A DNA stretch of 48,068 bases from Minisyncoccota bacterium. GTDB lineage: Bacteria; Patescibacteriota; Minisyncoccia; Phycocordibacterales; Phycocordibacteraceae. Below, one piece after another: positions 1-2,724 of the stretch. Numbering within the stretch: the first letter of the stretch is position 1; every line of letters begins with the position of its first letter. The notes under the pieces are model-generated. The model had not been told where the DNA came from and ran no database searches. It was given only the letters and a program-made list of their open reading frames with translations. The stretch lies in NCBI GenBank assembly GCA_028695415.1, contig JAQVIY010000002.1:68883-116950 (forward strand). The letters are read 5' to 3'. The translations under genes were made by a program, and so were the position numbers.

Positions 1-698
1 TGAAATCCGTTGATATCATGGGGAACACCGAAAGCGAAGGCAGTGCACTGGTACGTTCCTGACGCTCAAACACGAAAGCCAGGGTAGCGAAGAGGATTAG
101 ATACCCTCGTAGTCCTGGCCCTCAACGTTGCTCGCTCGCTTTACGGAGTATCGACCCTCTGTGAGGCTAAGCTAACGCGGTAAGCGAGCCGCCTGGGTAG
201 TACGATCGCAAGATTAAAACTCAAAGGAATAGACGGGGACTCGCACAAGCAGTGGATTATGCGGCTTAATTCGTTGATAAACGAAGAACCTTACCAAGGT
301 TAGAAACCCAGCTGCATCCTCTCTGAAAGGAGAGGAGCCTTCGAGGGTGCTGGGCAGGTGATGCATGGTCGTCGTCAGTTCGTGGTTTGAACTGTTCCCT
401 TCAGTGGGGTAACGAACGCAACCCCCGTTGTCTGTTGCCTATATGGCCAGGCGAGACTGCTCCCTCACGGGAGAGGAAGGTGGGGATGACGCCAGATCAG
501 CATGTCCCTTGATACCTTGGGCTGCACGCATAATACAATGGGCGGTACAACGGGTCGCAATGCCGTAAGGCGGAGCCAATCCTTATAAAACCGCCCCCAG
601 TACGGATCGAGGTCTGCAACCGACCTCGTGAAGCCGGAATTGCTAGTAATCGCAGGTCAGCCAAACTGCGGTGAATACGTTCTCGAGTCTTGTACTCA
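1..698 (+). rRNA. rrs: 16S rRNA, 5'-truncated by window edge, exon A (about E. coli 690 to 1398)
   Basis: Conserved blocks ATTAGATACCCTCGTAGTC, AACTCAAAGGAATAGACGGGGACTCGCACAAGC, GAAGAACCTTACC, GTCGTCAGTTCGTG, GGTGGGGATGACG, GTGAATACGTTCTCGAGTCTTGTACTCA. AATAGACGG is a CPR-like variant. Confidence 0.97.
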
Positions 699-1535
699 TT
701 CAAAAATGTGCTTGGTAGTCATTCAATCCAGTCCGTTCAAATCGGACCCTCCTCCGGGAGCGTAGCGAACGAACAGTCGATATACCGCGAGGTTGTCGGC
801 GGAGAGATCTAGTAGCAAAAAGCAGCCCTCCTGTAGAGATACAGAGCGTATGTGGGACCCATTCTGGTGAGTAATGGGGAACTACTTCACAATCGCGTTG
901 AGCGGATGCAAGGAACGGAATGAATGATGACCCAAGGAGATCTCACAGGGATCGAGATGTTATGAACACCTATGAGAAGTCAGCTGTGTCGTAGTACCAT
1001 GCGTCAAGTTATACTTTATGCATGGAAAGGACACTTCCAGTAGTAAGTAACGAATATGTTGTCGGACTTACGGATGGCGAGGGGTGCTTCTATGTAAATA
1101 TGGGAGTTTCTTCTCGCTATCGAGCAGGATACCGCGTGCAATTGCATTTTCACCTGAAGATGCAAGAGCGCGATAGAGAACTGCTCGAAAAAGTGCGTAA
1201 CACAATAGGATGCGGCGAAGTCTACTTTCAAAAAGAGCAACGCGCCAATCACTGTCAGTGTTATCGCTATACCGTGAGTTCAGAAAAGGATATACAGGAA
1301 ACAGTAATCCCTTTCTTCAAACAATATCCGTTACAAAGTGCGTCGAAGGGTGCGAGTTTTGAGATTTTCTGCAAGATCGCTTCTCTTGTAAAAGAGAAAA
1401 AGCATCTTACACCTGAAGGTCTTGAAGAAATTCGTGAACTCAAATCGCGCATGAATCAAAAAACTGCTGGACTCGCGTAGTACGAGAAATTCGTATGCTA
1501 CGTGGGAACGCAAAGACGTCTCGGTCTATTGCAAT
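699..1535 (+). mobile_element. Intron 1 in 16S rRNA (about S1398), group II-like, with LAGLIDADG ORF; exact splice sites uncertain by a few nt
   Basis: 16S homology stops after TTGTACTCA (698) and resumes at CCGCCCGTCAAG (1536). Internal GAGAAGTCAGCTGTGTCGTAGTACC resembles the sequence just before domain IV ORFs of bacterial group II introns. A DV-like hairpin with a GAAA-containing loop and 2-nt 3' bulge lies at 1472-1506. Confidence 0.75.
1022..1480 (+). CDS. LAGLIDADG homing endonuclease, single motif (VVGLTDGEG), 152 aa
   Basis: ORF with NEYVVGLTDGEGCFYVNMG motif, located inside intron 1. Confidence 0.88.
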   Translation: MERTLPVVSNEYVVGLTDGEGCFYVNMGVSSRYRAGYRVQLHFHLKMQERDRELLEKVRNTIGCGEVYFQKEQRANHCQCYRYTVSSEKDIQETVIPFFKQYPLQSASKGASFEIFCKIASLVKEKKHLTPEGLEEIRELKSRMNQKTAGLA

Positions 1536-1622
1536 CCGCCCGTCAAGTCAAGGGAGCTGGGGGTGCCCGAAGGTCTGCCTCGCGCAGGACTACGGCAAAT
1601 TCAGTGACAAGGACTAAGTCGT
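1536..1622 (+). rRNA. rrs: 16S rRNA exon B (helix 44, about E. coli 1399-1498)
   Basis: CCGCCCGTCAAGTCAAGGGAGCTGGGGGTGCCCGAAGG...GTGACAAGGACTAAGTCGT. Confidence 0.93.
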
Positions 1623-2400
1623 TGGTGCATGCTGCACCTGTTGCGACGCTTGGGAGTAATCCCTCGAAAAATAAACTCGGCTATATGCTGGAAGACCTGA
1701 GTATCCCGCGCTACGCGGTATAATTACGATTATGCCCGTGACAATGCGTCGGGTGCAGAAAATCAGCAGGGAAGTCCTCTGTGTTAAAACGCATGACCCC
1801 TCAGAGACTACACGCCGAGCGCCGTTCAATTCGGACAAAGAAATTCAAGCATATCTGCAGGGTGCGCTCCATGATGCGTATCGTCGCGAGAATCGCATTC
1901 GGTTTTCTCAAAAAGGAACTGAATGGTTAACGACTCTCAAGGATCTTCTCGGTCAACTCGGCTATCGGTCGTGGATGTATCGGGAAGGTTCACGTGATGT
2001 ATATGATCTGGAAACCACCGCAGAATTCTTGGATTTTAAGTTCGATGTCTCGATTCTTGAGACGAGTGAAGAAAAGGCGGCGTATATTCGCGGTTTTTTC
2101 GATGCAGAGGGCGGTATTCCGCATTCGCGGGACGCCTCACTCTACATTCAGCTCGTGCAAAAGGATCTCGAGAAAATGCGATCGATCAAATCAGTGCTCC
2201 AATCGCTCGGTATCAAGACCGGTGTGCTCCACAATCCGAGCCGCAAGGTTGATCCAAATTATTGGCGCTGCTTTGTAAGCACTGAATCGCATTCAGACTT
2301 CGCGCGTATCATCGGGTCATCGCACCCGTTGAAGCGAGCACGGTTTGAAGAACGGATGATGATATAGTCCATGCCTCATAGCGATATGAGGGGGACACAG
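1623..2400 (+). mobile_element. Intron 2 in 16S rRNA (S1498), group I, with LAGLIDADG ORF
   Basis: Clean rejoining of AAGTCGT (ends 1622) with AACAAGG (starts 2401); 5' exon ends in U and intron ends in G. P4 TGCTG(1686-1690)/CAGCA(1764-1768); P7 GACTA(1806-1810)/TAGTC(2365-2369) in typical TCAGAGACTACACG and GATATAGTCC contexts; P9-like hairpin CCTCAtagcgataTGAGG. Confidence 0.9.
1732..2367 (+). CDS. LAGLIDADG homing endonuclease, 211 aa, second motif IRGFFDAEG intact, first motif (LQGALHDA) degenerate
   Basis: ORF with AAYIRGFFDAEGGI motif; located inside intron 2 and extends through P7. Confidence 0.85.
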   Translation: MPVTMRRVQKISREVLCVKTHDPSETTRRAPFNSDKEIQAYLQGALHDAYRRENRIRFSQKGTEWLTTLKDLLGQLGYRSWMYREGSRDVYDLETTAEFLDFKFDVSILETSEEKAAYIRGFFDAEGGIPHSRDASLYIQLVQKDLEKMRSIKSVLQSLGIKTGVLHNPSRKVDPNYWRCFVSTESHSDFARIIGSSHPLKRARFEERMMI

Positions 2401-2639: not shown

Positions 2640-2677
2640 TCAACACAAAACGCCCCTTTGGGGGCGTTTTGTGTTGA
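2640..2677 (+). terminator. Strong 17-bp perfect hairpin
   Basis: TCAACACAAAACGCCCC-TTTG-GGGGCGTTTTGTGTTGA. Confidence 0.75.
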
Positions 2678-2724
2678 GGTGGAAAGATAATGAGATTTTT
2701 GCTAGTATCAATAAGTTCTTTATC

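Follow-up and report, generated by a model that had tools for sequence, protein, structure and literature searches.

Which kinds of intron can share one bacterial 16S rRNA gene, and how does each of them find its place? The question is raised by a stretch of 48,068 nucleotides (hereafter, the window) from a small-genome CPR/Paceibacteria metagenome-assembled genome (MAG; 16 contigs totalling 728 kb, completeness 96.8%). The window starts within a 16S gene, the 3' part of which is present and interrupted twice. A first-pass annotation, made from the letters alone, had read the two interruptions as introns of different ribozyme classes, each bearing a LAGLIDADG reading frame, and had called such a mixture rare in bacteria. 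We consider it highly probable that the gene indeed carries two independent homing introns of different classes, namely group II and group I, each with its own LAGLIDADG homing endonuclease (LHE). This two-class arrangement is real but already known in relatives; the newer detail is how intron 1 appears to find its splice point.

Borders of the interrupted 16S gene

Homology to 16S rRNA (RF00177, cmscan) extends from the window start to about position 698, and two further exons follow. Their borders are given in E. coli numbering (A1398/C1399 and U1498/A1499), which follows 16S landmarks.

1..698 (+): 16S exon 1 (3' part), last base A1398; RF00177 629 bits and empty sites in same-genus loci
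699..1535 (+): intron 1, group II, 837 nt; Rfam matches in relatives, relatives-only DV-DVI model, and empty-site borders
1536..1622 (+): 16S exon 2, C1399-U1498; sequence reading and relatives with an empty 1498 site
1623..2400 (+): intron 2, group I, 778 nt; RF00028, 55.4 bits
2401..2432 (+): 16S exon 3, from A1499; sequence reading, 3' end putative

Read directly, the gene restarts at 1536 with CCGCCCGTC and at 2401 with AACAAGG. The breaks originally placed at 698/1536 (after A1398) and 1622/2401 (after U1498) prove exact, as intron-free relatives of the same genus join precisely there. In a survey of 58 same-genus genomes (the window's own included), 36 matched a query of 449 bases from exon 1, and the reading covers 30 loci. 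At 1398, 22 of the 30 are uninterrupted, reading TTGTACTCACCGCCCGTC, and the remaining eight hold an insertion at 1396-1399. Among the 22 loci that are empty at 1398, 19 are also empty at 1498, two are filled there, and one ends too early. Taken by site, three loci have both filled (the window, L135, and L141), five the first alone (L133, L142, L149, L158, and L160), two the second alone, and 19 neither (one more being unreadable at 1498), so that all four combinations of filled and empty sites occur within one genus. The two loci with only the 1498 insertion (L147 and L154; RF00028 50.2 and 41.9 bits) encode in it relatives (80-81%) of P0002, the endonuclease of intron 2. Locus L040, whose 16S is 97.9% identical to that of the window over 575 nt, carries intron 1 but not intron 2. 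The assembly is metagenomic, and introns of the same family recur in independent MAGs.

Shortly past the 16S gene, a near-perfect inverted repeat (CACAAAACGCCCC...GGGGCGTTTTGTG, window 2643-2678) resembles a terminator, and a tRNA match at 2725 (cmscan) marks a tRNA-Ile gene (2725-2799). The 3' end of the latter, AGCGTGCACC, recurs near 2875-2884 and 2924-2933 (region 2780-2935), with an anticodon-arm-like stretch preceding the last copy; these downstream repeats may be tRNA remnants, possibly from integration or duplication. The 23S gene of the same genome (L035, contig C2) is 3544 bases long, at a distance of roughly 13 kb from the 16S gene. Between the 23S and the 5S gene, about 1.3 kb downstream of the former, there is a weak match to group I (29.2 bits).

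Ribozyme class and endonuclease of each insertion

For intron 2, RF00028 matches positions 1614-2391 above its curated cut-off of 50 bits, and the group I core that had been described (P4, P7, a U at the exon end, and a G at the intron end) is present. The final exon base, U1622, is paired to G1643, and the final intron base is G2400.

1618-1622/1643-1647 (+): P1 of intron 2, by eye, with the splice-site pair U1622-G1643
1686-1690/1764-1768 (+): P4 of intron 2, sequence reading
1806-1810/2365-2369 (+): P7 of intron 2, sequence reading
1732..2367 (+): P0002, two-motif LAGLIDADG homing endonuclease with an I-DmoI-like fold, start codon tentative; profile match and predicted fold

Group I matches also occur outside the rRNA genes of this genome, on contig C8 (L001:1501-1751, 66.5 bits; L003:1501-1786, 38.2 bits). 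The one in L003 adjoins a LAGLIDADG-like ORF (L003:1726-2403, - strand), and the frames on either side of these matches resemble halves of tRNAs, which hints at introns located in tRNA genes.

Intron 1 yields no RF00028 match within 699-1535. The Infernal search that the first-pass annotation had proposed as a check thus came out as expected for intron 2 (RF00028, 55.4 bits) and not for intron 1: RF00029 finds no match in the window stretch 600-1640, even at E 10, and RF01998 stays below its curated cut-off, which is a matter of score and not a structural trait. Since the Rfam signal in the window alone is weak, relatives of intron 1 were collected through its endonuclease, P0001, which has protein matches in 90 of the 379 genomes of the phylum. 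With 80 named loci taken, 83 distinct introns were mapped at the intron 1 site, rising to 89 once the same-genus loci were added; six duplicate copies of introns already in the set were left out. The RF01998 cut-off is exceeded in nine of the 20 relative loci scanned at this site, and L141, L142, and L158 likewise lie above it. L018 has an RF00029 match of 34.3 bits.

959..1032 (+): RF01998 (group-II-D1D4-1) match, 26.8 bits, E 0.014, cut-off 35
1022..1480 (+): P0001, single-motif LAGLIDADG_1 homing endonuclease, I-OnuI-like; profile match, PDB match, and predicted fold
1472..1506 (+): domain V (DV), lower helix 1472-1481/1497-1506, upper helix 1482-1485/1491-1494; covariation and model match
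1474-1476 (+): CGC triad of DV, from the DV structure
1495-1496 (+): 2-nt bulge of DV, from the DV structure
1510..1532 (+): domain VI (DVI), with a bulged A at 1528, the eighth base from the intron end and putative branch point

As a group II intron should, intron 1 has a DV with the catalytic triad and a 2-nt bulge, and it terminates in AU, which confirms the earlier reading of its 3' end. The DV pattern was found in 73 of the 83 introns. The other ten, examined by eye, comprise L017 (boundary), L019 and L025 (a different DV loop), and seven with an extra stretch beside DV. In these seven (L026, L031, L049, L050, L061, L100, and L112), a hairpin-rich insert of about 40 nt lies in or beside the 3' strand of DV, a domain usually intolerant of insertions.

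Covariation was measured in an alignment (A2) of 34 of the 43 introns in the 1398 bin, 31 of them distinct. A2 omits the window's own copy (L005), five introns with boundary differences or extra hairpins (L017, L031, L049, L050, and L061), and three of the 1397 type (L020, L027, and L033). The DV-DVI structure tested on it, which was written from one of its own rows (L036), is filled with standard pairs in 94.0% of cells, compared with 30.0-43.0% in slid controls. Two-sided changes occur at 15 of the 22 pairs, and covariation reaches 0.482 against a shuffled mean of 0.183, with none of 500 shuffles as high. The innermost DVI pair is weakly supported (columns 56/66 unpaired in 19 of 31 rows). 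The triad pairs C-G, G-U, and C-G are kept in 31, 30, and 31 of the 31 distinct rows, respectively, and every one of the 34 rows has the bulged A of DVI, while its flanking pairs covary. Inspected by eye, the DVI of the main 1399 clade (alignment A3) looks less regular. A model (R1) built from A2, and thus without the window, matches window positions 1465-1539 with 86.2 bits and an E-value, rough as such values are for R1, of 9.6e-23; the next best match scores 11.3 bits. As judged from these alignments, the signal in intron 1 is not a chance one. The assignment to group II made at first sight is borne out by this relatives-only model, with DV, the bulged A, EBS1, and the splice sites all placeable. 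A single class for both introns, which would have overturned that annotation, is ruled out by RF00028 on intron 2 and by DV/DVI covariation and model R1 on intron 1.

Both introns hold a LAGLIDADG ORF in a CPR bacterium, as had been claimed, and both products combine a profile match (PF00961, E 1.8e-23, for P0001; PF14528, LAGLIDADG_3, E 8e-16, for P0002) with acidic motif residues. P0001 has its best PDB match (E 3.1e-47) in the second half of aHE15, a two-motif LHE of solved structure, engineered I-OnuI is matched at about 4e-43, and the predicted fold has a pLDDT of 91.9. P0001 resembles I-OnuI-type halves by sequence but is a single-motif protein, and analogy suggests that it acts as a homodimer; I-ShaI, another CPR LHE, is reported to dimerize and to cut its insertion site (PMC11270868). 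In P0002, the two motifs are conserved across ten aligned sequences, with conservation beginning at about residue 20-40. Its predicted fold (mean pLDDT 83.7) is closest to I-DmoI (E 3.3e-10), a likeness of fold only, as no PDB sequence matches at E 0.1. Relatives of P0002 occur in 14 of the 379 phylum genomes, the window's own included. The two LHEs are thus of different families, one I-OnuI-like with one motif and one I-DmoI-like with two. Both ORFs overlap the ribozyme cores, P0001 having its stop codon within DV and P0002 within the 3' strand of P7. In L081, on a contig labelled Spirochaetia, the LHE of the intron nests within CPR sequences, by horizontal transfer or through a binning error.

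Splice junctions and the guide loop of intron 1

Two further elements bear on where intron 1 is cut out.

699..707 (+): 5' linker, 9 nt, from the exon to the GUGC motif at 708; sequence reading
858..878 (+): EBS1 hairpin, loop 865-873 complementary to exon positions 1393-1398 (6 nt) and 1399-1401 (3 nt)

Within this loop, UGAGUA (868-873) complements the six bases that end the 5' exon, UACUCA, and the last complementary position (1401) is a G-U pair. Among the relatives, the loop base facing 1396 agrees with the host in all 67 parsed introns (A-U 12, U-A 52, and U-G 3; 16 of the 83 were left unparsed, and 1397-type rows were placed within the 1398 bin), a complementarity that supports IBS1-EBS1 pairing for intron 1. 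Position 1396 of 16S rRNA is usually A; in the window (position 696) and in many related CPR genes it is U, and the guide loop is changed to match.

Insertion registers were assigned from the junctions that restore conserved 16S sequence, without use of the guide loop. Of the 89 introns, 32 fit only after 1398, 38 only after 1399 (L076, L103, and L111 being read in this register), and nine after either, with five after 1397 and five after 1395/1396. The linker is mostly 7-11 nt long in 1398-type relatives and 5-8 nt in the 1399 type. The 1397-type introns (L142, L158, L020, L027, and L033) apparently have no 5' linker and form one clade of the LHE tree (support 83).

The loop was compared with the register in 79 introns, nine of which were left unparsed, while the nine either-register introns were parsed but stand outside the fractions. 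Opposite A1394, the loop has U in 23 of the 25 parsed introns of the 1398 type versus none of 36 of the 1399 type; opposite C1402, it has G in all 36 of the 1399 type versus 10 of 25 of the 1398 type; and opposite G1401, it has a pyrimidine in 24 of 25 and in 36 of 36, respectively. The bases of the loop follow the register. The complementary stretch thus seems to measure about 8 nt, 2-3 nt of it in the 3' exon, and to shift by one base together with the junction. In both the 1398 and the 1399 type, some 5 nt of the 5' exon and 2-3 nt of the 3' exon would then face complementary loop bases. Because the 3' exon is invariant, the 3'-exon half of this complementarity rests on conservation. Loops of the 1397 and 1395/6 types are fewer and less clear.

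Register labels are clustered on a quick LHE tree of 88 rows, where they need 16 changes versus 41.4 when shuffled, and among the 60 rows of the tree-controlled test there are at least six changes of the 1398/1399 label. That test holds four independent supported-branch pairs, of which on average three go the same way and none the opposite way (median sign test p 0.25, underpowered); for the G opposite C1402, the corresponding average is 1.2 of four pairs, again with none opposite.

Two-sided EBS1 pairing marks IIA introns, with IIB and IIC loops pairing with the 5' exon only, and the DV triad is AGC or, for some introns, CGC, according to the parts of PMC4424553 drawn on here. As that source gives CGC for just "some introns", the CGC triad is not decisive for IIC. 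Intron 1 looks to join a IIA-like trait, the two-exon guide, to a core resembling the IIC Thiomargarita family. A 5' linker is accompanied by branch-point loss in many IIB1 families (Liu et al. 2026, PMC13190283, as far as consulted); such a coupling finds no support among 1398-type introns, whose bulged A does not vary. We put forward tentatively, and with slightly less than even confidence, that one LHE-bearing group II lineage has repeatedly slid between the bonds after 1395/6, 1397, 1398, and 1399 by re-spacing a single guide loop, which in the 1398 and 1399 types would hold both exons, thus combining IIA-like recognition with a IIC-like core and a 5' linker with an intact branch-point A. 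A limited search of titles and abstracts in open-licence PMC found none on sliding registers or two-exon guide loops at 16S position ~1400.

Proposed excision and homing, and known counterparts

From these features we infer how splicing and DNA cutting would proceed. Intron 1 is a small group II ribozyme in which an LHE gene, probably in domain IV, replaces the reverse transcriptase. With its EBS1 loop (UGAGUA, 868-873) paired to UACUCA at the end of the 5' exon, the DV triad and the bulged A1528 in DVI would excise it by branching or, if the 9-nt linker (unusual for a branching intron) blocks this, by hydrolysis, leaving an intact TTGTACTCA-CCGCCCGTC. Intron 2 would act as a group I ribozyme, with guanosine attack at U1498. 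Each LHE would act at its own site and cleave 16S alleles that lack the intron there, P0001 as a homodimer and P0002 as a two-motif monomer, so that repair would copy the intron in.

Three other accounts of intron 1 deserve weighing. Group II introns usually begin at GUGYG, and one could therefore place the 5' splice site at 707/708, before the GUGC motif, with nine extra bases kept in the 16S rRNA. We regard this as highly improbable, because those nine bases are absent from empty relatives, the EBS1 loop pairs with the bases preceding 699, and a 5' terminal linker is found throughout the Thiotrichaceae rns-1396 family in the account of Liu et al. (2026, PMC13190283). It is very unlikely, too, that the intron is a splicing-dead passenger in a cell that relies on 16S rRNA in fragments or on a second gene copy without introns. 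The extra stretch of about 40 nt beside DV in some relatives would suit such decay, but the 96.8% complete genome gives a single match to the 16S exon query and a single DV-DVI match, the catalytic pairs are kept while their neighbors vary, and fragmentation at an insertion in the decoding center would presumably be costly.

The last account sets group II aside altogether. Intron 1 would instead belong to group I in a divergent form, be a bulge-helix-bulge intron of the archaeal type, or represent an intervening sequence that RNase III cuts and that is left unspliced. Short intervening sequences do occur in CPR rRNA genes as well (PMC11270868, in part), and the Rfam matches of the window alone are weak. 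Against this stand the absence of RF00028 from 699-1535, the covariation of DV and DVI, the relatives above the RF01998 cut-off, the conserved complementarity between guide and exon, and a ligated product that equals intact 16S sequence, which together leave it next to no chance.

The closest counterparts of intron 1 are found in CPR bacteria themselves. Tsurumaki et al. (2024, PMC11270868) count 53 of group II in a total of 378 insertions from 16S genes of the CPR, mostly at one site (16IS9, position 1400); 39 of the 53 have an LHE and none a reverse transcriptase. Intron 1 shares with 16IS9 the gene region, the host radiation, the Rfam assignment to group II, a LAGLIDADG_1 gene, and the absence of a reverse transcriptase. 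The main text of that paper makes no mention of EBS, exon-binding, branch point, or splice site; exact junctions, EBS/IBS pairs, and a branch point, absent from its consulted parts, are proposed here for intron 1. The same paper reports LHE-coding insertions at CPR 16S position 1498 (16IS10), which resemble intron 2 in site, internal LHE, and group I class. They carry LAGLIDADG_2 in that description, whereas P0002 is a two-motif LAGLIDADG_3 protein.

Outside the CPR, 16S genes of Thiomargarita combine an LHE-bearing group II intron with group I introns (PMC4853749), the subclass of the former being disputed between sources seen in part (IIB1 in PMC4853749, IIC in PMC13190283). Liu et al. (2026, PMC13190283) describe rns-1396 as a IIC-LHE family with a 5' linker, present in all its Thiotrichaceae members and, in bacteria, known from Thiotrichaceae only, as far as their survey was consulted. 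Compared by description only, intron 1 is like rns-1396 in 16S region, single-motif LHE, missing reverse transcriptase, and 5' terminal linker (9 nt before GUGC), and differs in its host and in its insertion after 1398.

The claimed rarity of the mixed arrangement does not survive these comparisons or our own sample. The distance to exon 3 is readable for 80 of the 83 distinct introns, and 22 of these 80 have a 1498 insertion (spacing above 150 bases versus the usual 83-92). In 14 of the 80 genes, the 1498 insertion has an RF00028 match (L005, which is the window, L006, L008, L014, L015, L019, L020, L023, L025, L027, L039, L065, L066, and L076), although 10 of these 14 matches fall below the curated cut-off and some are weak (L065, E 0.011; L019, E 0.002; L027, E 0.019). 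The 1498 insertion of L048 was scanned and gave no group I match. At 14 of 80, group I and group II introns in one CPR 16S gene are not rare, and CPR as well as Thiomargarita examples were already on record in the parts consulted of Tsurumaki et al. 2024 (PMC11270868) and PMC4853749.

For the biology of this group, the locus means that unrelated ribozymes and unrelated endonucleases coexist in one CPR 16S gene, with exact borders and empty sites at hand. Such introns bias PCR-based 16S surveys, and bacterial group II-LHE introns extend beyond the Thiotrichaceae, contrary to the 2026 survey (PMC13190283, as far as consulted). The sliding guide loop, if confirmed, would provide a natural series of introns placed one bond apart on one target, and this series would offer a direct test of how the splice bond is chosen and of whether a linker is compatible with branching.
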